A DNA stretch of 64,000 bases, taken from the NCBI GenBank assembly GCA_014871385.1, contig CM026423.1:21012049-21076048 (forward strand), in the 5' to 3' direction. Source of the stretch: Ceratodon purpureus (lineage: Eukaryota > Streptophyta > Bryopsida > Pseudoditrichales > Ditrichaceae). Below are positions 26,024 through 57,639 of this stretch, one piece after another; positions within the stretch are counted from its first letter, which is position 1; each line of letters begins with the position of its first letter. The notes beneath the pieces were generated by a model that was not told the origin of the DNA, did not search any database, and saw nothing but the letters and a program-made list of their open reading frames with translations. The position numbers and the translations under genes are program-made.

Positions 26024-26882
26024 TTAACCCCTAAACGGCCATTGTCCTGGAATGGGCTTTTTTGAAATTTGGGCAGGTTCCTAAAAATTCATATTTACTT
26101 GAAATTTTTTGAAATTTTTTGTGGTAAAAGGTTTTTTCAAGAGGTTTATGGGGATATTTTTTTTATTTTTTTTGGATGAAGTGAGAAAAAGTTATGCTCC
26201 TCTGAGCATAATACGCCCTTCCGCGGGCAGGCTCTCAGCCACTGTGAATGCAGCAATTTCTGCCCAAAACTGCCCAAAACTGCCCAAATCTGCCCAAATC
26301 TGCCTAAAGATGGAACTCTGAAATTCCACCAAAAATTGAGATTTTGATATTTTTCAAAAATAAAAGTTTCTATGTATTGATAAGGTAGCAGAGCATGTTC
26401 TCACCGTTTGGATTTTTAATCCAGTTTTTTTTCATATGCTATTTTTATTGTCAAAAAACGGCCTTTGTTTGTGAATTTCAGTGTACCCCCTAGCGGAAAA
26501 TGATTGTTTTGGTAACCTTCTACAATTTTTTTGAATATAATTTTTTTAACACAATTAGCTAACTCGGTCTTCTTTGACGTGCATCAAAACCCCCAAATTC
26601 CATAATGGAAAAAAATGGTTTTTTGGGCCTTCAAAACTCTGCTGATCCCTTTTTAGGCAGGGAAAAAAAACTTGTTTTTCAACTTTGAACATTATGATCT
26701 TGCAATTGATGAGGAATCAGTGTGTAGGATTTGGTGGACATGTAGACATAGAAGTTAGCTACAAGATCGTAAGGTTAGATGTACTAATTAAGACCCCGAG
26801 TTTGCAAAATCCACCTTGCTTTGAAGAGGGGCTGTTTTCAGGCAGTTTTGATGAAAAACACCCTTGGCCGTTTAGGGGTTAA
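26024..26882. mobile_element. 851-bp element with 14-bp inverted ends and TTAA flanks (piggyBac-like MITE)
   Basis: The element spans 26028-26878. Its left end CCCCTAAACGGCCA is the exact reverse complement of its right end, and each end abuts TTAA (26024-26027 and 26879-26882). TTAA target duplication with CCC-starting ends is the rule for piggyBac transposons. No transposase is encoded, so it would be a non-autonomous derivative. It contains a 10-bp tandem repeat. A PIF/Harbinger-type element with a TAA duplication is the main alternative. Confidence 0.7.
26261..26309 (+). repeat. 10-bp tandem repeat, four to five copies
   Basis: Successive TGCCCAAAAC or TGCCCAAATC units inside the TTAA-flanked element; the last unit is imperfect. 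Confidence 0.9.
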
Positions 26883-34264: not shown

Positions 34265-36388
34265 ATGGCCGAACACTCTTCATTGGGTCATTACATGTGC
34301 ACGAAATGTCGTGATATAGACTTTCGTGGAGCATTCTTTGTGAAGCGGAGGCAACCAGTTGACATCTACGAACTCTGCCTTGACAGATCCTTCTGTGACA
34401 TAGCTCATATTCTCAACACTCATCGAGATTGTCGCTGTTGCTCCTTGATACTCTCCGGCATTCAGCATTTCTATCCGGCTTTGCTTGAGGAAAAGAAAAC
34501 CAAAGTTACTTGGCAACGTCAAGGTACACGAGCGACTGTGAAAGCTCAGAATGGTGAGGTAGAGTTCAGAAGCGTGGTGCAAATCTTTTTAGGAATGGAC
34601 ATCGACAGAGTTAATTTTGCTATCAACTTACTGTCACCATCGAAGGAGGATGTCGGTTTCAATGCGTTGAGAGCACGCCGTGTTAGCCAACGTCAGGCTG
34701 AGCTGCCTCTCATCGCCGACTGGATCAGTACGTGTAAGCACATGCACAATGATTGTCAGCACAAACTCTGGCAGCGGGCAATATCCATTGATCAACTTCG
34801 CCTGCGAGTGATCGACGTCCAAGCCCGCTGCATTGTTGCTGCATCCAAGGATTGCGAGTACATAGCTCTAAGCTATGTCTGGGGCAAGGCTTCAATGCCC
34901 ATGACTCTAAAAGGAAACCTCGAGACATTCTCCCTTCCCCAAGGTTTAGACCTAAAACCCTTGCCTCAAACCATCTCGGATGCCATGGAGCTTGTGAGAG
35001 CAGTCGGACAGCGATACCTCTGGGTCGACGCCCTCTGCATCATTCAGGATGACGAGGAAGACACATTGCACCAGATTGGCAACATGAATCTTGTATATGG
35101 TCTCGCGCTCTTCACAATCATTGCAGCTGATGGCGAGGGGGCAGATGCTGGGCTCGTGGGTGTGAAGTCGGATTCGCGGAACATTGTGCAAGGCATCGAA
35201 GAAGTGGAACTGGGTCTGCATCTCACTGTCTCATTGGGTGGGTTCGGGCCACATCGTCGCTCTCTCTCAAAATGGAACACACGCGCCTGGACCTTTCAGG
35301 AAGCGCTGCTGTCTCCGCGCATGGTCATTTTCTCCGGTGGTGAGATGACCTGGGAGTGCCGCGAAGCAGTCTGGACCGAAGATCTACAAGTCTCGCCTGG
35401 CGCAATCGGCAGCTTCACCACGCCGCACTTCAGCAACTCCATGACACCTCTGCTCGAGGGTCGGTTGGCGGCGATGAATGCCCATTCTTCAATGGAGGTC
35501 AGCCCGTTCACAGCCATGCCCCTTCACAATCTCACTGTATATGAGAATGCAGTACGTGATTACACGGCCCGCGAGATGACCTATCCGTCAGACGGGCTGA
35601 ATGCGTTTGCAGGCTTGGCCAAAACGTTTGAGACGGCATTGGCCACAGGTTTCGTGCAGGGCTTACCACAAAATCGTCTCGACATGGCCTTGATCTGGAC
35701 CCCTGAGCAGGCACTAAAGCGCCGCTCTGGCTTCGCAAGTTGGTCGTGGGTGGGATGGATCGGAAAGTCACGATACATCAGCATGAACCCGAATGTCATC
35801 AAGCCCATGGTTCACTACTATGTGACCGAAAACAAAACTGGGGGGAATCATGCATTTAGTCGTCTTCCGCAGGAGTGGGAAGAAGAAAACTACAAGCCTT
35901 CAATGCGGCCTTGGAGAGTGGTCAAAAGTAGCTCTCCCACTGCCACTCTACCCATACCTCAGCCCGGGAACTTGGCCTCATCATACAGCCTCTCCTTCTA
36001 CGCGCTCACAGCGTCCTCGGAGCATTTCCGGCTCGAAATGCTGAAACCGCCACTTCCACTCTTCCTGACGCTCTACGACCACACCAATCATAGTGTTGGC
36101 AGCATGGGTCTTGATGCTGGAGTCTACCCGGCTGTTGGCAAATACTCGCTGATCGTGCTATCGGAGTGCTCTCATCGCGTGCAGCAAGCGGGGCTGGGGT
36201 CGTCTCTTCCAACAATGATAACACTTTCGACGCAGAGTGGGGAGAGTGACAAGGCCGAGCTGTCTTTGTTCAACGTGATGTTGGTTGGGTGGGCAGGTGG
36301 TGTGTGTGAGCGTGTGGGATTGGGTTGGATGTATAAGGCAAACTTTTGGAAGGCGAAACCAGAGTGGACTTGGGTGGTTCTGCAGTGA
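34265..36388 (+). CDS. HET-domain protein 1, intronless, fungal type
   Basis: A single 707-codon exon. An N-terminal Cys-rich part (CTKCRDIDF, CRCC) is followed by a complete heterokaryon-incompatibility domain: YIALSYVWG near residue 198, YLWVDALCIIQDDEED near 250, LVYGLALFTIIAADG, then WNTRAWTFQEALLSPRMVIF near 340 and WECREAVW. In filamentous fungi this architecture belongs to proteins that trigger cell death after non-self recognition. HET domains are rare in plants; fungal-derived HET genes in mosses are known from the literature as I recall. No intron, no transmembrane segment and no partner domain such as NACHT or WD40 is seen. The 349-residue C-terminal half is typical of stand-alone HET proteins. 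It lies 1.2 kb upstream of the Mutator-like insertion, and a second HET gene lies beyond it on the same strand. The frame is intact. Confidence 0.9.
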   Translation: MAEHSSLGHYMCTKCRDIDFRGAFFVKRRQPVDIYELCLDRSFCDIAHILNTHRDCRCCSLILSGIQHFYPALLEEKKTKVTWQRQGTRATVKAQNGEVEFRSVVQIFLGMDIDRVNFAINLLSPSKEDVGFNALRARRVSQRQAELPLIADWISTCKHMHNDCQHKLWQRAISIDQLRLRVIDVQARCIVAASKDCEYIALSYVWGKASMPMTLKGNLETFSLPQGLDLKPLPQTISDAMELVRAVGQRYLWVDALCIIQDDEEDTLHQIGNMNLVYGLALFTIIAADGEGADAGLVGVKSDSRNIVQGIEEVELGLHLTVSLGGFGPHRRSLSKWNTRAWTFQEALLSPRMVIFSGGEMTWECREAVWTEDLQVSPGAIGSFTTPHFSNSMTPLLEGRLAAMNAHSSMEVSPFTAMPLHNLTVYENAVRDYTAREMTYPSDGLNAFAGLAKTFETALATGFVQGLPQNRLDMALIWTPEQALKRRSGFASWSWVGWIGKSRYISMNPNVIKPMVHYYVTENKTGGNHAFSRLPQEWEEENYKPSMRPWRVVKSSSPTATLPIPQPGNLASSYSLSFYALTASSEHFRLEMLKPPLPLFLTLYDHTNHSVGSMGLDAGVYPAVGKYSLIVLSECSHRVQQAGLGSSLPTMITLSTQSGESDKAELSLFNVMLVGWAGGVCERVGLGWMYKANFWKAKPEWTWVVLQ

Positions 36389-37577: not shown

Positions 37578-37586
37578 CATTCAATC
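37578..37586 (+). repeat. 9-bp target-site duplication, left
   Basis: CATTCAATC directly before the left terminal inverted repeat; an exact copy is at 48688-48696. Confidence 0.95.
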
Positions 37587-37903
37587 CCCTGACTATAATC
37601 CTCGCCCACGTCTTAATGGCATTCGCTATTTCTGTTCCCTTCCGCGGCGGTCCCGCGAGACAGGGCCCACGGCGCGAGACCCTTCTTTCGCTCCAGAATT
37701 CTTTCCGTCGCTCCCCCCCTCTCGCGAGCCGTGCCCGGGCTCGGGATGCCACGTCGGACCCCGTCTCGAAACCCTCCCTGCCACGTCCGCATCCTCCACC
37801 CTGTCTCGTCTCGGAACCCAGAAAGACGAGACACCCCATGCATGGGCTGTCTCGCGAGACAGCCTCATGGCACCATGGCCCATGGGCATGCATGGAGATT
37901 TTC
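37587..37903 (+). repeat. Left terminal inverted repeat, 317 bp
   Basis: Inverted match to 48371-48687, starting CCCTGACTATAATCC. It contains eight GTCTCG/CGAGAC hexamers, four on each strand. It also has a 20-bp perfect palindrome at 37845-37864 built from two such words, and two CATGCATG words (an RY-type B3 site). Confidence 0.95.
37845..37864. promoter_or_regulatory. 20-bp palindrome in left TIR, candidate protein-binding site
   Basis: GGCTGTCTCGCGAGACAGCC is a perfect palindrome made of two inverted TGTCTC words two bases apart. The mirror copy in the right TIR is at 48410-48429. It is a natural candidate for a dimeric transposase or accessory-factor site. Confidence 0.6.
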
Positions 37904-38295
37904 CTACCTTTCCGGGGCTTCCCTCTCGTAGGCCTGAGACGTGGAATAAGTCTCGTCTCGGTTTCCCGCTCGCGATTCCCAGGCGGGAGTTTGTTGTCTC
38001 TAAGTGCTCCATCGATTTCAAATTCTAGGGTTACCCGCCGTCTCGCCAGGCCCAGACGAGTGGCATCAGTGTCTGTCTACGGCGGACCCGTTTCGGTGCC
38101 CTCCCTGTGTCTTGCATGTTCCCGCGATGCATCGTCCGATACCGCTCGTTTTTTTGGCCGTGTCGATGCCGAACCCGTGAACGCGAGACCGAAGGTGTCT
38201 TCAGGAGTGGCATCGGCTTGTACCGCACCTGTTTGCGGGACAAGCGCAATCTGTTGTGATGCGTGACGCGTGATACCCCGAGAGGTGCGGTCGGG

Positions 38296-41200
38296 ATGGA
38301 GACCCTGCAAGAGGACGCCGCGAGACGAATCCTGAAGGACGATCTTCCGCGAGACAATGGAGCGACCGTGGCTTCCCATTCTGTCGACGTGAAGGTGGAG
38401 GTAGACACCTCCTGGATTGGACCGTGGGAGACAATCTACATGCAGAAGAACGGTCACATTCTGCAGGGATACCGAGACGCGGTACAGTTCCCACCTCGCG
38501 GTCCCTTCACGTTCAAAGACATCAAGTGGGACTTCCGCCAACCGAATTCGTATCCTGATGTTGTCGAATACTGTGGACGGAACGTCCCGGAGTCCGGGCT
38601 TGGAATCGGGCGCTCCGAGGGTGATGTCTCGGAGAAAAGGTATCATGTTGCTTACATTCCGTGGGAAAGAGTGGAGGACTTCGTCGAAGGCGAAAGCAAA
38701 CGAAGGTCCGATGTCCAGACAAGATTCTTGAAACGACCCAAGGGGAAGCCGCCTGGTCACGAGCCGAGACACAATACTGGCCTTCATACTTTCTGGTTAG
38801 TTCATTTCCGAAACCGAATACTTCTGGGTAACGTTTTGTATGTTCTTCTATTTGTTTATACGTGATGTCCGTGTCCCGATGTTCTTCGATAACGAGACAG
38901 CATTCGCGAAACGGGTTCCGAGACAGTCGATAACGGCTCGCTAACTTAGTATTGTATTTTCGGCACAGGTACGAGTGCCAGTACGGGCCGAAGGACTTGT
39001 CCGACAAGGTCCTCACAATTACTCCCGAGATGGAGACGAAGAAACCGAAATACAACGTCAAGGGCAAGTTGATTCCCAACGGGCGTGGGAAGGGGAGGCC
39101 CAGAATTGGCGCTGCTGCGACTGGAATGAGCATCAAGAGAGGATGCGTGTGCAGATTCCAGGTGAAGCAGCTGTACTATCTCCGAGACGTGGTCGAAATT
39201 GTATATTATAACCCGAGACACGAAAATCCTGCATCGCTAGTGGTCCACGGCGCCGTCCTACCCGGCGAGCGTGGTCGTTTCGAAAAACAAATCCCGACGG
39301 AGCTCCGGAATTGGGTACTGTCGAGCCTCCGGTCTGGCGTTTCCAGTAACAAGATTCTTTCTACCCACCGTGCCGAGGTGATGCGTCTCGTAGCCGAGGG
39401 TGTTCCGCCTGAACGATGTCACTTTCTACAGGAGTGGGATGTCCGAAACATCGCCAAGGAATTGAGGAAAACAGAGTATCAGAGAGACGACAACGACGCC
39501 GAATCCGTGAAGATGTGGGTGGAGGCTAACCCGGACGATGTTTTTTTCTACCGTCTCGTTAAGAAAGGCACTGTCTCGGGAACTCTCACGTCTGCGAATT
39601 TGCCGTTTGTCATCGGCATCCAAAACGAGTTCCAGTTCAAGATGATGCTACAGCACGGCCACGAAAGTATTGTCTCGATGGACGCTACGTTCGGAACAAA
39701 TCACTAGAAGGTGAGGCCCATATATTTCGACTTTGTCTCGTTCAGTACTCATTTCGTTTTTCGAGACATTCACATCTGTCTCGCTCTTGCAGTATCCCCT
39801 GTACACTCTGATGGTGTTCGACAAGTGGCGGAATGGAGTCCCTGTTGCTTTCATTATCGCGCAATCCGCAAAAGAGAAAGACATCACTCCCTGGCTCACC
39901 GCAATCAAGCAGAAGCTAGTTTCGAAGATGCCAGAGTGGCTACCGAGTGCATTCATTGTCGATGATGCATTAGCTGAGATTAACGCCATAATGTACGTAT
40001 TCTGATATCTCTGTCTGCGTACTGTCTCGTGATTTGCCGTCTCGCAAGCTGTCTCGTGACATACCGTTCCGCACACTGTCTCGTGATTCCCCATCACGCA
40101 TACTGCACCTCCACTTCTGTACCCCTGATATGTCTCGTGCGTTTCATAGGTTGGTATGGCCCAAGATTAAAGTATTCCTATGCCTCTGGCATGTGAGGCG
40201 GGCCTGGCAAAAGAACGCCTGTGCCAAAATTAAAGGAATAATCACCCGAGCGTGGGCGCTGCGGGAAATGGGAGCGCTCATGTACATCGAGGAGTCCCCC
40301 GATTCGAGGTTGTCTGTCTTGGACTACGTGAAGGCTAGGTTCGCGAGACTGAAGACATTAGTGTCCGGCGCTGCTGCTTTCTGGGCGTACATTGAAAAGT
40401 ACTGGATGATAAAGCCCGAAATGTGGGTGACAGGGAACAGGCACATACCACATGCTGGTCAAGACACGAACGCAGGAATTGAGTCATATCATGGACACAC
40501 AAAGGCCACTCTGAAGGCCGAGAAGAGTCGGTTGGATGGAAGGCGTCTCGATTGGCTCATTCACGAGCTCACAAACGACGTCGTAACGAAATACGACTAC
40601 AACCAATACATGAAGGAGAATGGCTTCATAACAAACAAGAAGGCAGAGCAGATCGTTAGAAACTCCATTATATCGGCGAACAAGATCCCGGACTCCTCTG
40701 TCTCGCTGCCGTCTCGACCCGGTGACCCCGCCATAGTCACGTCGTCCAAGCGAGCCCACATTAGATACGCCGTGTACAATCCCGATACCGAGTGGGCTGT
40801 TTGCGAATGTGTATGGGCCCAGAAAGGAAATCTTTGCAAACATCAGCTGAAGGTTCTTCGTCTAATGAGGCCTGACCTTGCCGACGGGACGATTGTGAAG
40901 GTCTGCGGGACACTGTACGGTACCAAGCTAGGCGGTGTCTCGGCTCTCCTAAATCCCCCGGGACCGGGAATTCCAAGCGAGACTGAAACCGGACCGTCGC
41001 AGGATGTCCCCGAAGACTGGAATGCCAACAGCGAGACACAGGATGTGCCCACGGTCGACCCTCCACCGAGTCAAGAAGACGAGGTGGCAAGAATGAAGCG
41101 CATCATAGACCAGACGGGAAGAGAAATCACGGAACGAGCTGCGAGACACTACGTCATTCAGAAGCACCTGGCGGCGGAATTGGCAGAGATGAATACGAGA

Positions 41201-41368
41201 CACGCTGCCATGGAAACGAGGATTTTAGCCGGTCTCCTTCATCCAACGGAGCGAGACGCCCCAAGATTTGAGAGGAATGACCCGAACAAGCCCAACTCGC
41301 TGAAACGGAATAGGGATTTCCTCGACGGGGGACGCGTCGGACGTCCGCCCAGATCCACGCAGGAGTGA
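38296..41368 (+). pseudogene. MULE transposase, four exons, one in-frame TAG
   Basis: Exons 38296-38795, 38969-39710, 39793-39992 and 40150-41368 have GT-AG junctions and matching phases, giving 887 codons. The catalytic triad of the Mutator DDE fold is visible: Asp in SMDATFGTN (codon 405), Asp in VDDALAEI (codon 471) and Glu in NAGIESYHG (codon 592), followed by CLWHVRRAW-type helices. A SWIM zinc finger, CEC then CKH, lies near codons 699-714. The C-terminus is coiled and basic, with a GRVGRPPRS AT-hook-like end. The start ATG (METLQEDA) was chosen over an upstream GTG. Codon 413 is TAG (39705-39707), three bases before the exon 2 donor. MULE relatives have tyrosine at this place. The break truncates the protein just after the first catalytic Asp, so this copy cannot make a full transposase unless the stop is read through. 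Confidence 0.9.
40024..40137 (+). repeat. GTCTCG array within transposase intron 3
   Basis: Five GTCTCG hexamers lie in a 157-bp intron, at 40024, 40039, 40051, 40078 and 40132, in the same orientation. Four of the five are followed by TG or TGA-like bases. The array cannot be explained by codon use. Confidence 0.9.
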
Positions 41369-41434
41369 CCCCACGTCCCTGTCTCGGATTTCTATATTCG
41401 ATGTGTCTCGGATCGAGACAGCGGGAACTCTACC

Positions 41435-41440
41435 TATAAG
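41435..41440 (+). promoter_or_regulatory. TATA box of the 128-codon ORF
   Basis: TATAAG in CTATAAGTAC lies 115 nt upstream of the ATG at 41555 and only 67 nt after the transposase stop, suggesting a separate promoter. Confidence 0.5.
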
Positions 41441-41554
41441 TACACCCGCCACGACTCGTACTTTCTTTTTATTTCTGCAAGTGTTGAGTGGGATTCATAA
41501 TCACGGGGTACCAGTTTCCGTAGTTCCCGTTTGGCGTTCAATTGGGTTCGCAGA

Positions 41555-41941
41555 ATGGAGTCCATGAACGTTAACTTCTTCAATGGGGGGGAGGACACGG
41601 TCCCGGGAGTTCATCCGGAGGGGCCTGTCTCGGGTGCCACAGGCTGCTGTGATCTCCAGGAATTGGAGGCCGACGCTTTAGAGGTACTGGAGCAATTGTT
41701 CTTGGAGGCATCATATGATATAGCGTTATCGTCTCGGAGAATGAGCTCTGCGAAACGGAATCCAGTGGACGTGTACCGTATACCGAGACAATACCTTGGC
41801 GGGCAGTCCCGAACACGAACTGTCTCGAGGCGAGACGGGGTCGACTACGAGTCCCTTACGTACGTAGGCATGTGTCTCACCCCTTGGAACCCCACTAGGT
41901 CAAGGAGGATGTTAGGACCATCAGCATTCGGTAAACTGTAG
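41555..41941 (+). CDS. Small element-encoded protein, 128 residues, unknown
   Basis: I start at ATG 41555 (MESMNVNFF); the frame extends eight codons upstream only from a TTG. The product has an acidic helical middle (LQELEADALEVLEQLFLEA) and a basic C-terminal half rich in R, S and T (SSRRMSSAKR, RTRTVSRR). No known family is recognised. It lies between the transposase and the convergent Ulp1 gene, has its own TATA box and itself contains several GTCTCG words. An acidic helix followed by an Arg-rich part would suit a small DNA- or RNA-binding adaptor, but that is inference. Confidence 0.5.
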   Translation: MESMNVNFFNGGEDTVPGVHPEGPVSGATGCCDLQELEADALEVLEQLFLEASYDIALSSRRMSSAKRNPVDVYRIPRQYLGGQSRTRTVSRRDGVDYESLTYVGMCLTPWNPTRSRRMLGPSAFGKL

Positions 41942-42396
41942 CTCTAGATTGTGTTGTAGCGAATTTATTGAAGTTCTGTCTCGGATTGTAGCCTAGGAAT
42001 TATCGATACTCTTTTATGCTCAATGTAGACAAGTATCGGATGTAAAAGAATCTTCCGTTTTCTAATTATACGTCACACGGTTTCCCGTGGAAAATTTTGT
42101 ACAAAAAAATTTCTTCTTTCCTCTCCGACCCCTGGGAGCCAAGCATCCCACATACGAGACACTGAGCTCTCAACTAGTCACAGGGAGTCCACTACAAACG
42201 AGAGGCGAGACAGTCACTTCCCTTCCTTGGACTGTCTCGGACTATACCATTCATCTATACACTGTCATTGTGTCCTTCAACTATGCACTACACCTCTACT
42301 ACTGTACGTCTCCCTCCCATCCCCAAAACTGGTACTATGTACTGAGCAGTCCTGTACAAGTCTCCTGCCTGTCTCGCCCCAAAACAAAAACGCAGT
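41942..42396. other. Spacer between convergent element genes
   Basis: The 3' regions of the 128-codon ORF and of the Ulp1 gene meet here. It still contains GTCTCG/CGAGAC words (for example near 41977 and 42205). No gene is seen. Confidence 0.5.
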
Positions 42397-45300
42397 CTAC
42401 AGCCGTCGTCTCGCCGAGCCTGAAGGAGAGTGCACCATCTTCTCGAATTTCTCACGCTTAGACTTCCTGGACTTGGTGGCGCTTCCGAGCCTCGCCTTTG
42501 TGTCTTCCTCCTCCTCAGAACCTGGTGCTCGTGGTTCACGGATGTGGAACGCATCCACCTTGTACCCGGTCCGAGACATCGCTGGCGAAATACCGAACAG
42601 TTGGACCCCGCCTTTTACTGTGACGTAGTCCGGGACAACGATATCCCCCTCCATCAGGTTAGGCAAGTCATTCAGTCCAGTCCCGCAGATCCTCGGTCTT
42701 GGTAATCTGTCGTCCGCACGGGCTGTCTCGATGTACAGCTGCTCCAAGAACCACAACTGCATTTGCTGCCCAGTCCATTTCAACCACCGCTTCTTCTTCA
42801 TTTTCTCCGCAGGCTTCGGGAAACGACAACCATATCCACGAGTGACCATGTACTGCCAGAACTGGAAACTCATTGCGTATCCGCACTCCCATGACTCCTT
42901 CTGGTTCGGAGCCTTGAGCGAGACACATCCGCGAGACACTACCTTCCACCAGTCCTGCGATCCCGGAACAATTCCCCTGGAGCTCGCCCACGCGATGTGC
43001 ACCAACGTGACGAAGTTGTCTCGAGCCTCCGTGTCGTGTATGTGGAGGAGGGATCCAAGGTGATATGTCGTGTCAAGCTCCACAACAAACAGGGTCCAGT
43101 GATCCTTATCGCAATAAGGGATCACCAACGTGTTCTCCCGGCCATTGCAACCTGAGAGCCACCGGATTCCGAAACTCCCCAGCCATTCCCAGTCCCCGTT
43201 GCACTCCAGGATGTGCGCATCCAAGACAGTATTGACGTTGGATTCTGCCACCACATACTGTCTCGCGACGTGGTCCGGCGATCTCAGAACCAAGTGCCGC
43301 AGGAGGAGGTCCACGAATGGCCCAATCATGCACGCCTGTGGTCTGAGTACGCACTCCCACTCTTGGACCAGGACAGGGATCTTCACGGCAATCCGGGGGT
43401 CGTTACCAAAGTAGATGATGTAATCCCCGTACTCCGTCTCGGCCACATGCCCTTGCCTGAAATAGAAGACAGTGATAATGTTAGATCCGAGACAGGGTAG
43501 AACCTGGACAGCGCTATAGGAACATGATATCGGGACACCGCGAAACATTTTCAAGAATAAAAAACATGGACACAACGAGCCTAAACATACCATGAGTAAT
43601 AAAACATGCCATTCACGAACTTAAGAACTTACTTGAAGCAGCCAACGTGGAATGGAATCATCAATACCCCAAGCACTGCCTTCCAATCCATCTGTACTCC
43701 CTCCGAGACAAGCTCCGTCTTGAAATCCTTCGGGGGCTCCAATGTGTTCGGAACAGGCGTGGCAGGGTCCATGAATTTAAAAATCCAGTGGCTCCCCGGT
43801 TTCAATTTACTCGGCGGTATTGGTGCGCCAAAGTCGAGGTCCCAAATCTTGAGTCCTTCCTCTCGTGACCCAATTCCAGAGGACTGTCCCTCGTCTGACT
43901 CCGGCTCCTTGTCCTCCTCGACCACTGTCTCGGACGCCGCCACTGCGTCTAGTAAAGACACAATATTGCAACCCCCGTTAATTAATGTCCCTCTGGACAC
44001 TGTATGATGAGTTGGTGTGCAAGAAAGTAATTGCGAGAATCCGAAACAGTCCATCTGGGATGCAGAGGGAATGCCATCGCCCAATGGCAGGGAACTGAAC
44101 CCGTCTCGCAATTCTTGGGTCCATGTTCCGGGACACTCACCTCTGGGTTTCGCGGCTGCCACTGTCTCCAATGAGGCAGCCTCCTTTCGCGGACTCTCGT
44201 ACCGGCGAGGCGAATCCACGGAGGCAATGTCAACAACCTCATTCATTTTGTTGTGAAATGGGGATGAAGGGCTCGCTGTCTCGGTCCCTTCCGAGTCTTG
44301 TGCAGGTTCGTCGACAGGTATCGCGTGACCATGGACGTTCAAGTGCCCGTACACCAACCTGTCTCGCGAAACCCCGTCAACAGCCGTCTCGGCAGCGGAC
44401 CACCGGTCTTGAGCGACACCATTCAAGAAAGTGCGCACTGACAACGCACTGCGCAAACCAGAGGCCCAGGCCGGCTCTGCAAAGAAGGTCCAAGCCGTTA
44501 GCTTCGGAACGCATGAACTATTTCCGAGACATTCTTACTACAAGACATCAGAACATGGCCTCTGTGTCGGATATGAACTTACCATCCGCGAGAGGGATCC
44601 AACGGAGATCTAGGTCCTCCCGTCAAGTTAATGCTTGCCGCAAAATCTTCAAGCACTCTGGGAATACCTCTTCCGAGACGGGCGCCGTCAACTGCCACGC
44701 CGTCATGAAGGATTCCGTCTCGGAAGATGCAAAGTCCTCCAGTGCCCGAGCCTGGACTGAAAGGAGCCACGCCTGCAGGTCATCCGAGACACCGCTGTGG
44801 AGGGACATGCATGCTGCTGTAATGGCGTCCGACGTCTCCGTCTCGGCGTTTGGATCAGCACCGAACAGTGTACTCCCAGCGGCCTGAACGAGACACCTCG
44901 CTGTGTCTAGAGCTCCAGGCGAAGACAACTTCTCTTGGACACTCTTGTCCAGTGCTCCTTGCAGTGGGTCCGCTGAGCTGTTATACCAGAGCACGAGGAA
45001 AATATGAGGGGCCCGTGACGGTTTTTTTTTTTATTTTAAATTATGTTGAATTGAATAAAGTACCTCAGGAGGAAAAAATAAAAATAAACAAGTACACAAT
45101 ACTGACCTGTACCGAATATTGTGGACGAGGAGGAAAACGCGAATGATCTTTGCCTCCAGACCTGCTCCGACTGGCAGCGTCCGTCTCGTACCGAGTGCCT
45201 TGACCACGTCTCGCGCCTCCGTTTCGTTGTGCTTCCAGGGCATGGGAGGTAGCCTCTCCGAGACAGCGGGGTTCTTCGCGCATATGTGGTACAGGGGATT

Positions 45301-47163
45301 CCAACCCCATGACACTTCCTCCAACTCCCCAGCCTTGGACTCCTCCCACGCTGCAACCCTGTCCGCGATGAATTTCTCCTTCAGTCTGGCGTTATGAAGG
45401 CGCTGGGCATCTACGGCCTCCTCGTGTTTCTTCCAGTCGTGGACATTGACGTAGTAGTCCATGGAGGCGTTCGCGAGACGATCCATCTCTGTCTCGGACA
45501 TTTCCCCGGTGTCCAACACTTCAGAAAGATCTGCCGCTAGACCGCTATCTCTCTCGGAGTATAGAGAATTCTGCAATTCAGAGAGTACGGCAGTCCTCCC
45601 CCGTTAGCAACCTTGAGGCACAGATTGAAGTGCGAGACAAGTATGAAAGATAGACGGAAATGAATTAAAATATCGCAACATATTCACGACAAGTACAAGT
45701 TATTATAAAATAATGAAGTTGAGAACTCCAGGGAGGAGATGTCGTACCTTTCGATTCAACTTCTGGAATCGGAAGTAGGTAAGCGAGATGATTGTCTCGC
45801 GCCCCTCCTTCTTCAAGAACTCCCCCAGTCTGGTCCGAAGAGTTCCCTTGTCCCACGTGTGGAACTCCCTCTCCTCCTCGAAAAGCCCATAATCCATTAG
45901 GATGGTGAGGCCCGTGTGTCCCAAGCGTGTCTCGGGCTGGCGAATTGGATCTATTGTAAACAGGGACTCCGCTGCCTCTTGAGCCTCCTCCACAACCTTC
46001 TCCTTGTCTCGCATTAAGGCGGACATTGGGCTCAGGGGAACCTCCATCGGGGCCTCGTCGACCACCATAGCCACCGCTCCAGTATCCTCTGTGTGGACAG
46101 TGGGAGTGGAGACGGCCATATCAGAGCCGTCCCCGGGACGTATCCGAGACGTATCCGAGACGTACCCGGCTGTCTCGTCCCGGATTGGGGATGGCGGTTT
46201 CTCGTCCGATGGTTTCGGTCGCTTCGCTGCCGTCGTGTTTGTCTCGCTCCTTGCCGCTGGGACCCTCTGTGCCGGGGTGGTCTTGCGTTTGTTTTTCCGA
46301 GAGTAAAACTCCCTCTCCTCGGGTTCCTCCTCCGGCTTGGAAGCCTTCACTTCAATGTCTCGTCCTTTCTTGTCTCGCTGTCGAGGAGTGAGTCCTGCCC
46401 GAGGAAGAACGATGAACGTATCAGGTACAGCTCCCGTGGCGTCCTCTTCGCCTGCAGATGTGTCTCGCCGGGGCGGTGACAGGATGATAGGGACAACAGC
46501 AGGCGTCGGTGCCGTCTCGGGATTGGGGATGAACGGTCTTCGCTCCACCACGGGCGAGTCCGAGGCCACAAAGTCACTGTCTGCCTCTGCCTCGGAATCT
46601 GAACTGCTCAGCACCATTTCCAAAGTCCTGACAGCCAACCTATCAGGGACAGATTTTCTCTCGGCCTTCATGGGTTTCTTCGTCTGCTTCTTCGGCGATC
46701 TATCACTCGGACCACGAATCGCAGGGACGCCTTGTTGGAATTTGACCGGCTCCCCTCGCCGCAACATAGCCTGTGTCTCGTTCACGTAGTCCCTCACCAA
46801 CTTCTGGGGCGAGACACCCGCTTGCAGCTTATCAATGGTAACGTTCTTCTCAAGCAGATTCGGGTACATCTTCTCCGGGATGACGTTACCGTTCGCGTCG
46901 ACATTTAGGGGGCACCCGTGCCATCTATGAGTATTTAGACGCGCCTTCTGAGCACACATGGGCTCCCCATTCTTGCCACGGCATTTGTGCTTGCAGCAGA
47001 ACAATCGACGTCCTAACATCACCGGCGCGCTATGACACTCCAGGAGCAAATTCTTCCACTCCTCCCATGTGTAGTGTTCCGTGAACAACTTCTTGTCGCT
47101 TTCGTGGACCTCCGTGACGCCGTCGTCCGTGATCTGGAGGTTCCTCCTGTACTCGGGAGCCAT
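42397..47163 (-). pseudogene. Ulp1-type (C48) cysteine protease gene of the MULE, five exons, one in-frame TGA
   Basis: The exons, on the minus strand, are 47163-45748, 45570-45107, 44977-44583, 44476-43633 and 43456-42397. All junctions are GT-AG with matching phases, giving 1,393 codons. The N-terminus has a Cys/His cluster (CCKHKC, C, HRWHGC, residues 56-84), then a long Pro/Ser-rich acidic and basic linker. The last exon holds the SUMO-protease-like fold: DKDHW (catalytic His, about residue 1158), LLHIHDTE (Asp, about 1178) and QKESWECGYAM (Gln and nucleophile Cys, about 1230). Such proteases cleave SUMO or SUMO-like tails; in MULEs their role is unknown. Exon 3 has a TGA at 44625-44623. 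A CGA-to-TGA change would explain it. The stop removes the protease domain. A TATA box lies 60 nt upstream of the ATG. Confidence 0.85.
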
Positions 47164-47222
47164 GTCTCGCTAAGTTGAACCTAAAACAAACAGGGGCGGA
47201 GGTTAGTAACCTGGATGCGAAG

Positions 47223-47228
47223 TTTATA
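47223..47228 (-). promoter_or_regulatory. TATA box of the Ulp1 gene
   Basis: TATAAA on the minus strand, about 60 nt upstream of the ATG at 47163. Confidence 0.55.
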
Positions 47229-47559
47229 AGACCTTCCGAGACACAGACACAGCGCCGAGACTGCGAGACAGCTGCGAAGCAAAAACTGTGCACATCAAAT
47301 TCGGCAGGAACTGTGGACGACAGGAAGGAGCCTCTACGACGGATCTTTGTCTCGGCGAAACATGAACGACGAATCGGAACAGAAATTAAGATTCTATGCA
47401 CAAAATTGGTATACTCAAGAACTCCCTCCCAATTCCAACGCAAGACACTCCTGTAACGGGGGCGACATCGTCGTCCTCATTTGATTTCGACAATAGCAGC
47501 GAGGCCACCCACAACGACCGCAGACAAGATACACCTGAACAGTATTCCACGAGACATGT

Positions 47560-47620
47560 CTATCCTAAACCCTAAACCCCAGAACGTCGTGACGTATGAC
47601 TACTAAACCCTAAAACTAAT
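47560..47620. promoter_or_regulatory. Telo-box cluster upstream of the Ulp1 gene
   Basis: CCTAAACCCTAAACCCC and ACTAAACCCTAAAAC lie within 60 bp, about 0.4 kb upstream of the Ulp1 ATG. Telo boxes are bound by plant telobox factors and often sit in promoters. Confidence 0.5.
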
Positions 47621-47984
47621 CTCTGTGACAAACTCCGGCAACAAAATCGCTATCGTCTCTCCAGAACACCATAAAAATAAACACATAGAAGATGATGAAC
47701 GTATACATACCTCGATTGTCTCTGCGAAATCGCCTCTGCACTCCTCCTCCGACCAAATCGCACAAACTCCTCGATCGCGGCTCCAGCAACAGACTCCGAC
47801 TCCTCAGTTCTCACAACACTCTCAAACTCTATCACAACACTCTCCGCCCATGAAAGCGCCTCTCGCACAACACTCTCCACCTCACAAACACTAAGCGTAA
47901 CACATCTAACAATGGCGCGAGACAGCGGAGAAGGAAACGGAGAGAAATTGGCAGAGAAATTAGCAAACTTTGACAACGCGCGCA

Positions 47985-47990
47985 TATAAA
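47985..47990 (+). promoter_or_regulatory. TATA box of the 71-codon ORF
   Basis: TATAAA lies 81 nt upstream of the ATG at 48071, in a stretch with several CTCTCG or GAGAC words. Confidence 0.55.
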
Positions 47991-48060
47991 CCCTCGCACC
48001 TCCTCTCGAGGGAACACTCTCACCACCCCACGAGACAACTCTCGCAACTCTCCTCAGGCA

Positions 48061-48069
48061 ATGGCATAA
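48061..48069 (+). promoter_or_regulatory. Minimal upstream ORF (ATG GCA TAA)
   Basis: A two-codon upstream ORF ends one base before the start codon of the 71-codon ORF at 48071. Such an arrangement would allow reinitiation or dampen translation. Confidence 0.45.
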
Positions 48070-48070
48070 A

Positions 48071-48286
48071 ATGAGTCCGTTTTTCCAGGAGGCTGCCAAT
48101 TTATACAGGGAGCAGGGGGGAGACGCCATCATCACACCTACAAAACCTCAGAAATCAAAATCGAGGAAAAGGCTGCAAGAGACGGCGCATGATCTCCACC
48201 CACAAAACCCCATCATCACCTCAACACCCGAAACAGCTCCGACGAGACAGACTGAAAGCAGAAGTGACAGGAGAAAGCAGAAGTGA
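48071..48286 (+). CDS. Small basic element-encoded protein, 71 residues, unknown
   Basis: The ATG lies 81 nt below a TATA box and directly behind a two-codon upstream ORF. The product is hydrophilic and basic, with KPQKSKSRKRLQ in the middle and RSDRRKQK at the end, which looks nuclear. No family is recognised. It lies just inside the right TIR (48371) and is transcribed towards it. Nucleic-acid binding is possible on charge alone. A minus-strand ORF overlaps it but lacks such a promoter. Confidence 0.4.
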   Translation: MSPFFQEAANLYREQGGDAIITPTKPQKSKSRKRLQETAHDLHPQNPIITSTPETAPTRQTESRSDRRKQK

Positions 48287-48370
48287 CACCCACGAAAATG
48301 AGACATCATACCATAAAACGTGGAAGGTCATTCGACAGGACGTGACGAATTCTGTCCGTCTCGGATGGAT

Positions 48371-48687
48371 GAAAATCTCCATGCATGCCCATGGGCCATG
48401 GTGCCATGAGGCTGTCTCGCGAGACAGCCCATGCATGGGGTGTCTCGTCTTTCTGGGTTCCGAGACGAGACAGGGTGGAGGATGCGGACGTGGCAGGGAG
48501 GGTTTCGAGACGGGGTCCGACGTGGCATCCCGAGCCCGGGCACGGCTCGCGAGAGGGGGGGAGCGACGGAAAGAATTCTGGAGCGAAAGAAGGGTCTCGC
48601 GCCGTGGGCCCTGTCTCGCGGGACCGCCGCGGAAGGGAACAGAAATAGCGAATGCCATTAAGACGTGGGCGAGGATTATAGTCAGGG
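48371..48687 (-). repeat. Right terminal inverted repeat, 317 bp
   Basis: Inverted copy of 37587-37903, with no mismatch seen by eye. Two long overlapping frames translate identically in both copies. Confidence 0.95.
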
Positions 48688-48696
48688 CATTCAATC
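48688..48696 (+). repeat. 9-bp target-site duplication, right
   Basis: CATTCAATC directly after the right terminal inverted repeat, identical to 37578-37586. Confidence 0.95.
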
Positions 48697-49682: not shown

Positions 49683-51779
49683 ATGGCATCGCAAATCCAT
49701 CAGAGAGAACAAGCCGGTTTCCCATTGAGAGTAATATGCATTAAGGAGACGCTCGAAAGTGACGGAGGAATATGCTTCGGTGTGCCTGGCAACTGGGATT
49801 TTCATATAATCTCTCATACATGGACAGAAGATGCGAGGAATTGGTCGGTGGAGATTGCAAACATCATGGACGAGAGGAAGAGCAGCGATGGTTTAGATGC
49901 TTATGCCGAACTCTTCAAGCAAGAGAGCTTTGCAGGGAAAAGAGGCTACACTGACCTTCTGGAGTTTCTGAGCATGTTGGCTGCTGATGGAGTGCAGGGA
50001 GTGTGGTTTGATGCGCTGTGCATAAACCAAAAGGATGATGGAGAGAAGAACAGAGAAATAGCACGAATGAGCGAGTACTATGCACGCTCTAGAGGCTGTT
50101 ATGTTTGGTGTCATGGCATGGGGGGGGGTTTCCGGTTCTGGGCAGAGCCAGGAACGTCTCCGCGTTACTTTACTTTGCCGCGCTGGTTTTCACGGGTATG
50201 GACCTTGCAGGAATTTGTGCTGCCAATGAAACTGGCGTTCATTGTGGGCATGGATATGGCAGGCTGCACGGCGATGTTCGCCTATAAGGGCTATTGTCGA
50301 TCCAAACGCTTGAGTTGGGAGCCAGCCAAGCTCATGGATGACCTAATCAAGGCCAGATTTTGGAGGCACTTTGGTTCTACTCGTCAAGTTAACAGTCGTG
50401 AACTTTTTCCTTGTCCGCACTGCAATCACCAGCAAAATGGCCACGTTTACTTTGTAGAAAGAGAAGAATACTTTGAGCTTATGAACCGAAGCAGCTATAA
50501 ATCTATCCAGGTGGGCAGGCTCCCTTCAAATTTCTGGACCGAATTCAAGTCCCCATTGTACCGCTTGCTGACGATCTTGTCTTGTAGTGACCAGCTTCGC
50601 CGTCTGCAGCTTGTAGCTCTTGTTGTCCGGGAAATCAGTGTGCGTGACTGCTCTGAATTTCATGACGAAGACAGACTCTTATCTATCTTAGGGCTTCTCC
50701 AAGTAGACGTTGGAAGAGTTCAACTAAGAACTGGCAGGGCGTTGCATGACCAAATCTACGATGTGGCTCAGAGTCTAGTGAACAGCCCAATCGATGAACA
50801 TCACCGTCTACTTTTATTGCTTTGCGTTGCTCAGTATCGTGGTAGCCCGATCAGATCCATGTCGTGGGCACCAACCTTCACTATCCAAAAAGTGTTGGGG
50901 GATATGTGGCTTCAAAGCCTCTCCGTGTTTCACATCTTCAAATGCATAGCCCAAGTTGAAGAACTTGGTAAACTGGGCTTAGCACTACAGTGCCCTTTCT
51001 TGCAAGCCAAGGCTGTGCCGTTTGTAGAACACCGGAAACAGTGTAGCACTTGTCCACAATGTCGACAAGCTGCTCGAATTCCCCACACGAATCTCTTTGT
51101 ACTTGAGGTTCAGAAATGCGACCAGTATTCTGTACTTCTCTGGGCTCATTCCGACGTAGACCATGATGATGAGCTGCGATTTTTGAGCGTCTCACCTCCA
51201 ACTCTCACCATGTCTATCAAGAGTGACATTAATGTTGAGAGGCTGCGTACCATGTCTTTCCATCTGTATCTACTTCTGATAGCCGAAGACCAGCTCCCGA
51301 ATTCCTCACAACCATATGGATTGTTCCTGGTTTGTATTGGCAATGATGTTGCAAACCTTCACAAAGTTGGTGTGTTTATTGGTGGGCCTGGATGGGATCC
51401 CGAGACAATGGAAGAGGCTTATGATACACCTGACGCTCAATCGGATGATTCAGACGTAATGTCAGAAGGAGAAGATGGATGCTTTAATAATGAGGAATTG
51501 GAGGACTTTCAAGAGTCTCAGGTCGTCCCGTGGAAAGACGAGTTTCCCACTGAAGATCTTGACGATGATCAAGAGCTTGATAACGATGAAGAAGAAAACG
51601 AAGATCAAGACCAGGACGAGGAAGAAGAGGAGGGACATGAGAATGACAATGAAGTAGATGCAGTCAATCCAAAGTGGGAACAAGATGTACAGTGTATGAA
51701 GTGGTCTAGATTCACTGTGGGTGGATTTGGAGAATTTGTGCCTTCAAGCATTTTTAGTTCAGACAAAATTGTTGAGTGA
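49683..51779 (+). CDS. HET-domain-like protein 2, intronless, with acidic tail
   Basis: A single 698-codon exon. A HET-type core is visible: HIISHTW near residue 42, GVWFDALCINQKDDGEKNREI near 107-127, YYARSRGCYVWCHG, then PRWFSRVWTLQEFVLPMKLAF near 165-185. Two CxxC pairs follow (CPHCNHQ near 245 and CSTCPQCR near 456), probably zinc ligands. The C-terminus, residues about 580-660, is a strongly acidic stretch of D and E runs. The HET fold in fungi mediates non-self-triggered cell death. It is only distantly similar to HET protein 1, so the two are not a recent duplication. The frame is intact and without introns. Neighbours are the Mutator-like element upstream and two unknown membrane-protein genes downstream. 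Confidence 0.85.
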   Translation: MASQIHQREQAGFPLRVICIKETLESDGGICFGVPGNWDFHIISHTWTEDARNWSVEIANIMDERKSSDGLDAYAELFKQESFAGKRGYTDLLEFLSMLAADGVQGVWFDALCINQKDDGEKNREIARMSEYYARSRGCYVWCHGMGGGFRFWAEPGTSPRYFTLPRWFSRVWTLQEFVLPMKLAFIVGMDMAGCTAMFAYKGYCRSKRLSWEPAKLMDDLIKARFWRHFGSTRQVNSRELFPCPHCNHQQNGHVYFVEREEYFELMNRSSYKSIQVGRLPSNFWTEFKSPLYRLLTILSCSDQLRRLQLVALVVREISVRDCSEFHDEDRLLSILGLLQVDVGRVQLRTGRALHDQIYDVAQSLVNSPIDEHHRLLLLLCVAQYRGSPIRSMSWAPTFTIQKVLGDMWLQSLSVFHIFKCIAQVEELGKLGLALQCPFLQAKAVPFVEHRKQCSTCPQCRQAARIPHTNLFVLEVQKCDQYSVLLWAHSDVDHDDELRFLSVSPPTLTMSIKSDINVERLRTMSFHLYLLLIAEDQLPNSSQPYGLFLVCIGNDVANLHKVGVFIGGPGWDPETMEEAYDTPDAQSDDSDVMSEGEDGCFNNEELEDFQESQVVPWKDEFPTEDLDDDQELDNDEEENEDQDQDEEEEEGHENDNEVDAVNPKWEQDVQCMKWSRFTVGGFGEFVPSSIFSSDKIVE

Positions 51780-53788: not shown

Positions 53789-55096
53789 ATGAGGATGTTG
53801 GCAGACGCATACGACAATGGCTTTAAAGTTTGTAGAATGGGAGGTAACCTGCCGAGCTTGGACTTCGCAGGACTAGCAGCTCTAGTCGGGGTTAACGCAA
53901 CAAAAGCTGGCATCCCTTATACTTGTCTCGTTCGTAGCCGGGTGCCCTACTTGAATCTCTATGTGCCGGCAGGCACCCTTGGACTTGCTCAGGCGGTGCT
54001 CGCTTGCATTGACTGGAGGCCAGCACGCATATTAATAGGCGCCGGAGAAGCGGGGTCGATGCTGGAGCTTTGTGGTGTCAAAGCCAGTGAAAATGCCATG
54101 TACGTGGGTCTACAATCTGCAACAGCTCTTCCAGTGCGGGGTGTTGTGGGAGAAGCTGTGGTACTAGAGCTCCTGAGGCAAGGGAAAAAGCAAGATTGTT
54201 CTCTCATTGGCCGTGATGCTGGAAGGTCAACATATGTTGTATGGGCGCAAATCCACGGATCAGACGACATCGATGGTGATGTACATGTACTTGGGGATGA
54301 AGGTGCTCTAATCAATTATCTTGCAACCACTGTGTGTGTGATAGTGTTGATACTTGAGGCTATGTGCCACGAGTGGTTTAGTTTTGCACTGGTGGCCATA
54401 GGAATGATCTTGAACGCAAGCATGGCCTTCCTGCTACGAGTGCAGAAGTTTGAGGTGGCATCCGCAAAACCTGCCAAAGGTGTACCTCCTGGAGACTCTG
54501 TGATAGTACTGAAGGATGATCCGGATGTGTTTTGCGTTTTGCGGGGCACAGAGAAGGCCATTCAGAAGCTGCTACAGAAGGAAGTTGTATTGAATGCAGG
54601 GTGGGTGGAGCGTCTGCCTCTCTTTCTGGTGTCGGTGGCTTTTATGATGTACTCAGCTCTGGTAGTCCTGGGCGTTCCGCACCTGAAACCCAGTGCCCAG
54701 TTATTGTTTTTGATTGTGGTTTGTGTTGGAGCAATGACTGACTTGGTGAAAGGTAGCTGGAATGGGAAGAGAGGCATTGCAAAAGAGGCCATGGCGAAGT
54801 ACGACATCAAGATCATGGATGTTAAGAAGTTCGGAAACCGAACAGCATCAGTTGCTTGTGTCGCTGCGGGTAGTAAAAGGTTGGACACACTAAAAGCTGC
54901 AGGGTTGTGCCCTACAACTGGCACTGTATGGCAGAATTGGTGGAATGCATTAGGAATCCTCGATGATGACGCCCTTGACAAGAGTGAGATTCAGATGAAA
55001 TTGGATACCCTGTCGGCGTCACTCCGAAAGGACGAGAAAGAGCTGTGGAATACATTGCAAGCAGACATGTTTGATGGCCGTGCACATGCAATCTGA
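53789..55096 (+). CDS. Unknown four-helix membrane protein A, intronless
   Basis: A single 435-codon exon from ATG 53789. A soluble N-terminal half of about 170 residues contains the patterns NLPSLDFAGLAALVG and ILIGAGEAGSMLELC. Two hydrophobic hairpins follow: residues about 176-195 and 198-219, then about 276-296 and 303-320, so four membrane helices. The soluble C-terminal part includes KFGNRTASVACVAAGS. There is no signal peptide. I do not recognise the family. A close paralog lies 1.2 kb downstream in convergent orientation. It lacks introns and sits beside the HET genes, suggesting a shared foreign origin, but the sequence alone does not show which donor. Confidence 0.75.
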   Translation: MRMLADAYDNGFKVCRMGGNLPSLDFAGLAALVGVNATKAGIPYTCLVRSRVPYLNLYVPAGTLGLAQAVLACIDWRPARILIGAGEAGSMLELCGVKASENAMYVGLQSATALPVRGVVGEAVVLELLRQGKKQDCSLIGRDAGRSTYVVWAQIHGSDDIDGDVHVLGDEGALINYLATTVCVIVLILEAMCHEWFSFALVAIGMILNASMAFLLRVQKFEVASAKPAKGVPPGDSVIVLKDDPDVFCVLRGTEKAIQKLLQKEVVLNAGWVERLPLFLVSVAFMMYSALVVLGVPHLKPSAQLLFLIVVCVGAMTDLVKGSWNGKRGIAKEAMAKYDIKIMDVKKFGNRTASVACVAAGSKRLDTLKAAGLCPTTGTVWQNWWNALGILDDDALDKSEIQMKLDTLSASLRKDEKELWNTLQADMFDGRAHAI

Positions 55097-56325: not shown

Positions 56326-57639
56326 TTAAGTTGCGTGCCGAAGGCCTTCCAACATGTCTTCTTGTAAAATATTCCAGAGCTCTCTATCCTCTTCTAACAC
56401 CGGAGCACAAAGATTCTCTAATAGTTTCTTCTGAACATCACTCTTATCAATAGATTCATCATCAAGCACCCGTAATGCATTCCACCAGTTTTCCCATACA
56501 ATACTAGTAATAGGGCACAACCCTGCAGCTTTCAACGTTTCCAACTTTGTACTACCCGCAGCGACACAAGCAACTGATGCTGTTCGGTTTCCGAACTTCT
56601 TAACATCCACGATCTTGATGCCATACTTCATTATAGCCTCTTTTGCAATACCTCTCTTCCCATTCCAGCTGCCTTTCACCAAGTCAGTCATTGATCCAAC
56701 ACAAACCACAATCAAAAACATCAGCTGGGCAGACGGATTCATGTTCGGCACCCCAAGCACTACCACAGCTGAGTACATCATAAAAGCCACCGACACTAGA
56801 AACAGAGGGAGATGCTCCACCCACCCTGCATTCAACACAACTTCCTTCTGTAGCAGCTTCTGAATGGCCTTCTCTGTGCCCCGCAAAACGCAGAACACAT
56901 TCGGATCATCCTTCAGTACTATCACAGAGTCTCCAGGGGGTACACCTTTCGCAGGTGTTACGGATGGTAATTCAAACTTCTGTACTCGTAGCAGGAAGGC
57001 CATGCTTGCGTTCAAGAACATTCCTGTGGCCACCAGTGCGAAGCAGAGCCACTGATGGCAGATGGTCGAAAGCACCAACGCTATCACACAAACACTGGTT
57101 GCAAGATAATTCATCAGGGCACCCTCATCTCCATCGACGTGCACCTCACCATCAATGTTGTCCGATTCGTGGATGTTTGCCCAGACAACGGTCGTTGGCC
57201 TTCCAGAGTCACGCCCAATGAGACTGGAACCAACTTGCATCTTTCCTCTTCTCACCAGCTCTAATACCACAGCTTCTCCCACAATACCCCGCACTGGAAG
57301 AGCTGTTGCGGATTTCAGACCTACGTAGGTGGCATTTCCACTTGCTTTGACACGGCAAAGCTCTAACATCGACCCCGCTTCTCCAGCACCTACTAGAATG
57401 CGTGCTGGTCTCCAATCAATGCACGCGAGTACCGCCTGAGCAAGTCCCAAGGTTCCGATCGGCACATAGGCATTCACGTACGGCATTCTACTACGAACTA
57501 GACAAGTGTAAGGGATGCCTGCCTTTGTTGCATTAGCCCCAACCAGAGCTGATAGTCCTGCGAAGTCCAAGCTTGGCAGGTTGCTTCCTACTCTGCAAGC
57601 TGTAAAGCCATTGTTGTATGCTTCTTTCAACATCCTCAT
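56326..57639 (-). CDS. Unknown four-helix membrane protein B, paralog of A, intronless
   Basis: 437 codons from ATG 57639. It aligns end to end with protein A (53789-55096): same start MRML, same NLPSLDFAGL and GAGEAGSMLELC blocks, same two membrane hairpins and the same KFGNRTASVACVAAGS block. The two are mostly identical in the second hairpin and diverge mainly around residues 140-220 and in the last 60 residues. The family is not recognised. The frame is intact. The head-on arrangement (tail to tail) points to an inverted local duplication. Conservation of reading frame and of the membrane segments in both copies suggests that both are or recently were under selection. Confidence 0.75.
   Translation of the reverse strand: MRMLKEAYNNGFTACRVGSNLPSLDFAGLSALVGANATKAGIPYTCLVRSRMPYVNAYVPIGTLGLAQAVLACIDWRPARILVGAGEAGSMLELCRVKASGNATYVGLKSATALPVRGIVGEAVVLELVRRGKMQVGSSLIGRDSGRPTTVVWANIHESDNIDGEVHVDGDEGALMNYLATSVCVIALVLSTICHQWLCFALVATGMFLNASMAFLLRVQKFELPSVTPAKGVPPGDSVIVLKDDPNVFCVLRGTEKAIQKLLQKEVVLNAGWVEHLPLFLVSVAFMMYSAVVVLGVPNMNPSAQLMFLIVVCVGSMTDLVKGSWNGKRGIAKEAIMKYGIKIVDVKKFGNRTASVACVAAGSTKLETLKAAGLCPITSIVWENWWNALRVLDDESIDKSDVQKKLLENLCAPVLEEDRELWNILQEDMLEGLRHAT

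Follow-up and report, generated by a model that had tools for sequence, protein, structure and literature searches.

The locus and its element

The window analysed here is a 64,000-nucleotide stretch of the moss Ceratodon purpureus (assembly GCA_014871385.1, contig CM026423.1, positions 21,012,049 to 21,076,048 of the forward strand), and the feature of interest is an 11.1-kb Mutator-like element through which one short word, CGAGAC (GTCTCG on the opposite strand), recurs far above chance, in terminal inverted repeats (TIRs), spacers, introns and exons alike. An initial annotation had noticed this excess by eye and had proposed that the word is a self-label, read all along the element by a factor that the element itself encodes. 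The excess is confirmed and is larger than first noted. Assignment to the Mutator-like elements (MULEs) is based on a 9-bp target duplication, CATTCAATC, which flanks the element on both sides, and on a MULE transposase domain (PF10551, E = 2.6e-15) in the spliced model of gene A. Genes A and B are hand-spliced models, and the parts of the element, in window positions, are:

37587-48687, no strand assigned: Mutator-like element, containing 114 CGAGAC/GTCTCG words
37578-37586, no strand assigned: target duplication, left copy, 9 bp, CATTCAATC
48688-48696, no strand assigned: target duplication, right copy, 9 bp, CATTCAATC
37587-37903, + strand: left TIR, 317 bp, 8 words
48371-48687, - strand: right TIR, 317 bp, identical to the left TIR, 8 words
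37847-37862, no strand assigned: 16-bp palindrome CTGTCTCGCGAGACAG, built from two words, in the left TIR
48412-48427, no strand assigned: palindrome CTGTCTCGCGAGACAG, right-TIR copy
38296-38795, + strand: gene A (transposase), exon 1, hand-spliced
38969-39710, + strand: gene A, exon 2, hand-spliced, with an in-frame stop at its end in the window copy
39793-39992, + strand: gene A, exon 3, hand-spliced
39993-40149, + strand: gene A, intron 3, 157 bp, 5 words, including a 27-bp tandem array at 40021-40105
40150-41368, + strand: gene A, exon 4 (last transposase exon), 10 words
41555-41941, + strand: gene C, encoding 128 residues and carrying 5 words, its frame open in 7 of 7 full-length copies
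45748-47163, - strand: gene B, exon 1 (first exon), with a small tandem array, 2 words, at 46119-46168
45107-45570, - strand: gene B, exon 2
44583-44977, - strand: gene B, exon 3, with one in-frame stop in the window copy
43633-44476, - strand: gene B, exon 4
42397-43456, - strand: gene B, exon 5, with the Ulp1-like part, which is weakly similar to 6dg4

The splice dinucleotides agree at 12 of 14 sites across all seven full-length copies of the element in the host genome, the exceptions being one deviating copy at one site in each of genes A and B. Two of the seven copies have all three genes open and lack the single in-frame stops that the window copy has in A and in B. The end of gene B matches the Ulp1 structure 6dg4 weakly (phmmer, E = 0.0098), and its Ulp1-like part shows the kind of residues that would be expected there (His, Asp, Gln and Cys), recognised by eye only; a Pfam scan of gene B gives no match to the C48 (Ulp1) protease. 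Rfam at gathering scores gives no matches, and no relatives were found for the TIR end or gene B exon 5 in the viral_contigs collection, or for the last transposase exon in the viral_contigs and genome_contigs collections.

A short word dispersed along the whole element

The window contains 136 words, of which 114 (63 GTCTCG and 51 CGAGAC) lie in the element and 22 in the 52.9 kb outside it, giving densities of 9.8/kb and 0.42/kb, respectively. Without the duplicate right TIR, the unique part of the element contains 106 words against 6.9 expected under a site-masked dinucleotide null. In a test of hexamer enrichment run alike on the element and on seven further 11.1-kb stretches taken from elsewhere in the window, some of which overlap, the best hexamer of those stretches is AAAAAA at 4.6-fold, compared with 16.9-fold in the element. 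Non-element DNA around the fetched copies (99.5 kb of flanks and inserts, not a random sample) contains 24 words, or 0.24/kb, and tblastn of genes A and B in this DNA finds no further MULE genes.

Density per kb is 25 in the left TIR, 10 in the left spacer, 12.7 in the middle region and 8.3 in the right spacer; within the genes it is 7.9 in A exons, 24 in A introns, 8.9 in B exons and 5.1 in B introns. The sites are spread uniformly along the element (Kolmogorov-Smirnov P = 0.33), with spacing slightly more even than random (coefficient of variation 0.81 vs 0.98, P = 0.013) and a longest gap of 368 bp. Recounting agrees with the initial annotation on the left TIR (8 copies in 317 bp), the last transposase exon (10) and the 157-bp intron (5); in the adjoining HET1 gene there are four rather than about three. 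After masking, a second strong dispersed word does not emerge in the element, only weaker excesses such as CTCCTC (24 vs 7.5) and GTACA (35 vs 11.4).

The word itself requires redefinition. Its GTCTCG/CGAGAC core holds, but the unit is CGAGACR instead of the bare hexamer, since 100 of the 106 unique-part sites have this form and CGAGACY is near chance: CGAGACA occurs 71 times (1.7 expected), CGAGACG 29 (1.6), CGAGACC 2 (1.9) and CGAGACT 4 (1.6). T is disfavoured before the word (9 of 106), and on the + strand 47 sites read CGAGAC and 59 GTCTCG. The reader could in principle be a host protein, whether an activator or a silencing factor, as the element holds 71 TGTCTCG, which contain TGTCTC, the auxin response element. 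However, TGTCTC followed by A, C or T occurs 6 times against 5.3 expected and CGTCTCG 29 times against 1.6, and auxin response factors are therefore not the explanation, TGTCTC not being enriched whatever its next base. The word is also rare in the host DNA seen, at the 0.42 and 0.24/kb given above, and a host reader of any kind appears very improbable.

Pairs of sites show no fixed geometry (61 within 60 bp vs 62 expected), their flanks are no more alike than random places (17.60 vs 17.49 of 40 bases), and the two tandem arrays that contain words, at 40021-40105 and 46119-46168, account for only 6 of the 106 sites. Most sites thus appear to have arisen singly: they are dispersed, mostly independent in origin and not copies of each other, and tandem duplication was rejected as their main source. 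One-off words with a purine next to them number 76 against 53 expected under a site-masked order-2 model, a modest excess of the kind that point mutation would leave if it creates and removes sites. Single, independent sites and this excess would also be compatible with biased mutation or conversion that writes the word without selection, the one-off words fitting precursors or decay equally well; we know of no process that writes a 7-bp word.

Words within coding DNA

The exons of genes A and B contain 58 words. In codon shuffles (500 for each gene), gene A has 21 words against a mean of 3.4 (maximum 9) and gene B 37 against 8.4 (maximum 17), and in both genes the excess extends over all six frame/strand classes. 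In gene A, synonymous choice permits the word at 34 places, of which 21 are used against 2.7 expected from codon usage outside the sites; in gene B it does so at 71 places, of which 37 are used against 7.3. The initial annotation had argued that codon bias could not produce the pattern, and had named absence of enrichment over a codon-matched null as grounds for rejecting its proposal; the enrichment beyond that null holds in both genes. The excess is visible in the encoded proteins as well: the word-encoded dipeptides ET (24 vs 9.9), VS (21 vs 11.0) and RD (17 vs 9.5) exceed expectation, and no other dipeptide is as over-represented as ET in the A and B proteins combined.

Dinucleotide, codon-shuffle and permitted-place nulls together rule out chance, codon bias and composition as the source of the words. 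With the flank test, they also refute an explanation by chance, codon bias or tandem repeats, for which the two small arrays could be cited and whose probability we regard as negligible. An action of the word in RNA, through splicing, export or translation, might be suspected from the 58 exonic words, but it is extremely improbable: words occur in both orientations relative to transcription (12 to 9 in gene A, 25 to 12 in gene B) and also in TIRs, introns and spacers.

Copies in the host genome and change at word positions

A search of the 362.5-Mb host genome with the leftmost 414 bp of the element revealed at least 21 left ends of full or nearly full length (414 bp) and 19 more comprising the TIR only; 19 copies or parts were fetched besides the window. 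A left part of the element at C9:14171410 is separated by about 234 kb from a right part at C9:14405334, which may reflect rearrangement, nested insertion or an assembly fault. Four of the seven full-length copies are young (114, 115, 113 and 113 words; 0.4% from consensus) and three are old (109, 101 and 108 words; 3.1-4.3% from consensus). Sister copies accordingly keep the sites, with 101-115 words each, whereas their loss was the other outcome that the initial annotation had named as fatal to its proposal. Of 125 distinct word positions in the seven-copy alignment, 75 are present in all seven and 5 in one copy only.

Differences between the young and old consensus are inherited, that is, they have passed through the transposing lineage. 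In the seven copies they affect 10 of 782 word columns (1.28%) and 295 of 10308 others (2.86%; ratio 0.45, P = 0.006), as against 37 of 782 (4.73%) and 432 of 10308 (4.19%) for private changes in the three old copies (ratio 1.13, P = 0.46). A larger set of 20 copies (12 young and 8 old, five of them partial) gives 16 of 743 word columns (2.15%) and 354 of 10034 others (3.53%) for all inherited changes (ratio 0.61, P = 0.047), and 76 of 743 (10.23%) and 962 of 10034 (9.59%) for private ones (ratio 1.07, P = 0.56). The lower inherited change at word positions offers modest support for selection on the words, and the failure of private changes overall to spare word columns in old copies counts against a mutational bias as their source.

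Deamination bias is absent from the element's non-coding DNA (ratios of CpG 1.00, TpG 1.01 and CpA 0.96, compared with 0.72, 1.20 and 1.21 outside). Among private changes, C>T/G>A make up 454 of 842 (54%) in old copies and 83 of 247 in young ones. The absence of CpG decay together with C>T-rich private changes fits a lineage that was unmethylated while active.

Related families and their words

A search of the host genome with the last transposase exon gave 103 matches listed of 783 first-look candidates, ranging from the element's own family to about 40% identity, and four relatives were examined as 5-kb pieces. The 82% relative has 23 CGAGAC, 22 of them CGAGACR (2.0 expected), and 6 of its 7 last-exon sites stand at positions used in the window. 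In the 54% family (C2:1245200-1250200, L050), 32 CGAGAC are found against 2.6 expected, and of the 7 sites in the last exon only 1 coincides with a site in the window; word density has been kept and the places have changed. This family has the same hexamer without seventh-base preference, as if the specificity of the reader differed.

Two loci of a 42-45% family, 87% alike to each other, contain 4 and 3 CGAGAC, which is close to chance, and a different word, AGTGTCAC, is dispersed instead, with 13 and 12 copies where 0.27 and 0.26 are expected. At one locus the last exon contains it 5 times against a shuffle mean of 0.31 (maximum 2). The question posed by the initial annotation, whether related families carry different words, is thus answered in the affirmative at 42-45% identity, CGAGAC being kept at 82% and 54%. 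A family in the same genome bearing another word is a further point against biased mutation or conversion, which we consider improbable. Genome-wide, CAGTGTCACA occurs 2,244 times against 858 for a reversed control, and it clusters at all three transposase matches listed on C1 below 13.47 Mb. Clusters of CAGTGTCACA without an adjoining listed transposase match, at C1:6016984-6040840, C1:6385917-6393226 and C1:1323536-1338670, are perhaps further copies of the second-word family.

Other parts of the element diverge faster than the catalytic part. The Ulp1 part is 36% identical where the transposase exon is 54%, and beside 40-44% transposases its matches are mostly partial, at about 24-30% (E about 1e-6 to 1e-3). 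The transposase N-terminus is 30-36% identical between families where the catalytic part is 42-53%. This N-terminus, with its Cys/His residues and an AT-hook-like stretch (both spotted by eye), raises the alternative that the transposase itself reads the word, the dispersed sites then serving transposition (loading, folding of the 11-kb DNA, end pairing or avoidance of self-insertion) and not anti-silencing. The dense TIRs, with 8 words in 317 bp and the two-word palindrome CTGTCTCGCGAGACAG, would suit such a role. However, the transposase sites known so far are mostly terminal or subterminal, and in this element 8-9 words/kb run through the body and its exons; a Pfam scan of the N-terminal exon finds no DNA-binding domain. 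On balance, a purely transpositional role seems unlikely.

Sequence around the element

HET-domain open frames (PF06985) flank the element at 34265-36388 (E = 6.3e-31) and 49683-51779 (E = 3.6e-10). Two open frames of about 436 residues, similar to each other and in inverted arrangement, follow at 53789-55096 (+) and 56326-57639 (-), with no Pfam match for either. Further features are part of an RNA polymerase I largest subunit gene at 15517-16125 (-; PDB 7aoc, E = 1.7e-06), a TauE/SafE-like frame at 61339-62088 (-; PF01925, E = 3e-06, under the curated cut-off), which we take to be plant-like in appearance, and an AT-rich, CpG-poor region at 22001-28000 (GC 0.34-0.38, CpG ratio about 0.4), possibly an old decayed insertion. 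HET genes have been described in the moss P. patens in truncated form, according to passages of PMC11228847.

A putative self-recognition code

The reading that we prefer is that CGAGACR is probably read by a sequence-specific protein binding double-stranded DNA, likely encoded by the element, which would have been selected to maintain about one word per 100 bp over its full length. Binding of CGAGACR by some protein of the element, taken on its own, appears quite likely, the candidate readers being the gene B product (Ulp1-like and fast-evolving) and the transposase N-terminus. For a family-specific reader, many sites along the body would be better than few; by covering the element, it could hold off host methylation or silent chromatin. 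As such a reader would coat the element, density along the body, coding DNA included, would outweigh any single site. If point substitution adds and removes sites and the word itself changes now and then, each family would come to address mainly itself.

Given the fit to a lineage unmethylated while active and the logic of the VANC proteins of Arabidopsis (see below), anti-silencing would be the likeliest purpose, followed by transposase-linked functions, but the chances that it is the actual purpose are about even. Equally balanced is a wider reading for the superfamily, in which each family would write its own short address densely through its whole body, exons included, with proteins bent to hold the address; sites would turn over by substitution while density is kept, and sister families would have another word and presumably another reader, amounting to a self-recognition code laid over the genetic code. 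The self-label of the initial annotation thus fits a word that is dispersed, codon-independent and retained in sister copies, with another word in a related family; its definition of the word and its contrast with Ulp1-free systems needed correction.

Several observations weigh against these interpretations. In the 20 copies, the young/old test weakens to 12 of 743 vs 268 of 10034 (1.62% vs 2.67%; ratio 0.60, P = 0.093), changes common within a group give a ratio of 0.70 (P = 0.43), and the inherited/private contrast has an odds ratio of 0.56 (P = 0.049), with P = 0.23 in coding DNA alone. Word columns are likewise avoided by private changes at non-CpG positions (ratio 0.69, P = 0.047); part of the signal may therefore be mutation context, a point that also favours a mutational origin of the word. 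Young/old changes comprise 54 C>T+G>A and 67 T>C+A>G of 280, and the lack of polarity makes the spectrum contrast soft; a young or horizontally acquired element would equally be without CpG decay. As for the reader, pieces of the five gene B exons give no Pfam match to DUF1985 or DUF287, AlphaFold models of gene B, made for its Ulp1 part (mean pLDDT 44) and its N-terminus (43), are too poor to use, and the transposase N-terminus diverges as well, so that divergence does not single out a reader. The comparison of families covers four relatives only, both second-word loci belonging to one family group, and in the last exon of one of them (L052) AGTGTCAC occurs 3 times against a shuffle mean of 0.30, not above the maximum of 3.

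Comparison with known systems

In En/Spm and Ac, short subterminal repeats are bound by the transposase and confined to the element ends. The element described here resembles them in its short repeated words, but these extend through the whole body, and binding by an element protein, established in those systems, is here a prediction. MULEs bearing Ulp1 (KIU/Kaonashi) occur in Arabidopsis, grapevine, melon and rice, and likewise combine a MULE with an extra gene having an Ulp1-like part, the Ulp1 match being weak in the present case; as far as the passages of the source tell, their motifs lie only in non-coding regions (PMC13317346).

The nearest known logic, by analogy, is that of VANC on VANDAL elements of Arabidopsis, where the protein binds its motifs and methylation is lost over the entire element, with motifs that vary between related families (parts of PMC5735166 and PMC10398659). 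The likeness comprises a MULE with a transposase and further genes, a short motif repeated along the element, different motifs in related families, and a transposase more conserved than the other large gene. The initial annotation had counted Ulp1 among the differences, which falls away because some VANC genes bear an Ulp1 domain (passages of PMC13317346). Other differences are more substantial. The motifs of VANC21 (YAGTATTAY) and VANC6 (AGTTGTCC/AC) are found in non-coding DNA and frequently form part of tandem repeats, and the VANDAL exon probes tested were motif-free, according to the passages available of PMC5735166, whereas here 58 words fall in the exons of A and B and most sites lie outside repeats. 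VANDALs are also described there as non-TIR MULEs, in contrast to the identical 317-bp TIRs found here, and gene B lacks a DUF1985 match. The authors of that work considered the rapid accumulation of motifs hard to account for by simple base substitutions (PMC5735166); the sites here must come mostly from substitution or from an unknown writing process. Binding and demethylation have been demonstrated for VANDALs and are hypothetical for the present element.

A search of the open-access literature found no description of an element marked by a word in this manner, which does not exclude that one exists elsewhere. If the interpretation is true, sequence-specific self-labelling of transposons would occur far from Arabidopsis, and in a stronger form than in VANDALs, the label invading exons and shaping proteins. 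Families that differ in their word coexist with copies whose genes are open in a single genome, that of a moss which is probably tractable. Three matters would become testable: how one protein recognises a mobile element over its full length, how reader and word change jointly, and whether tandem repeats, so frequent among VANDAL motifs, are needed at all.

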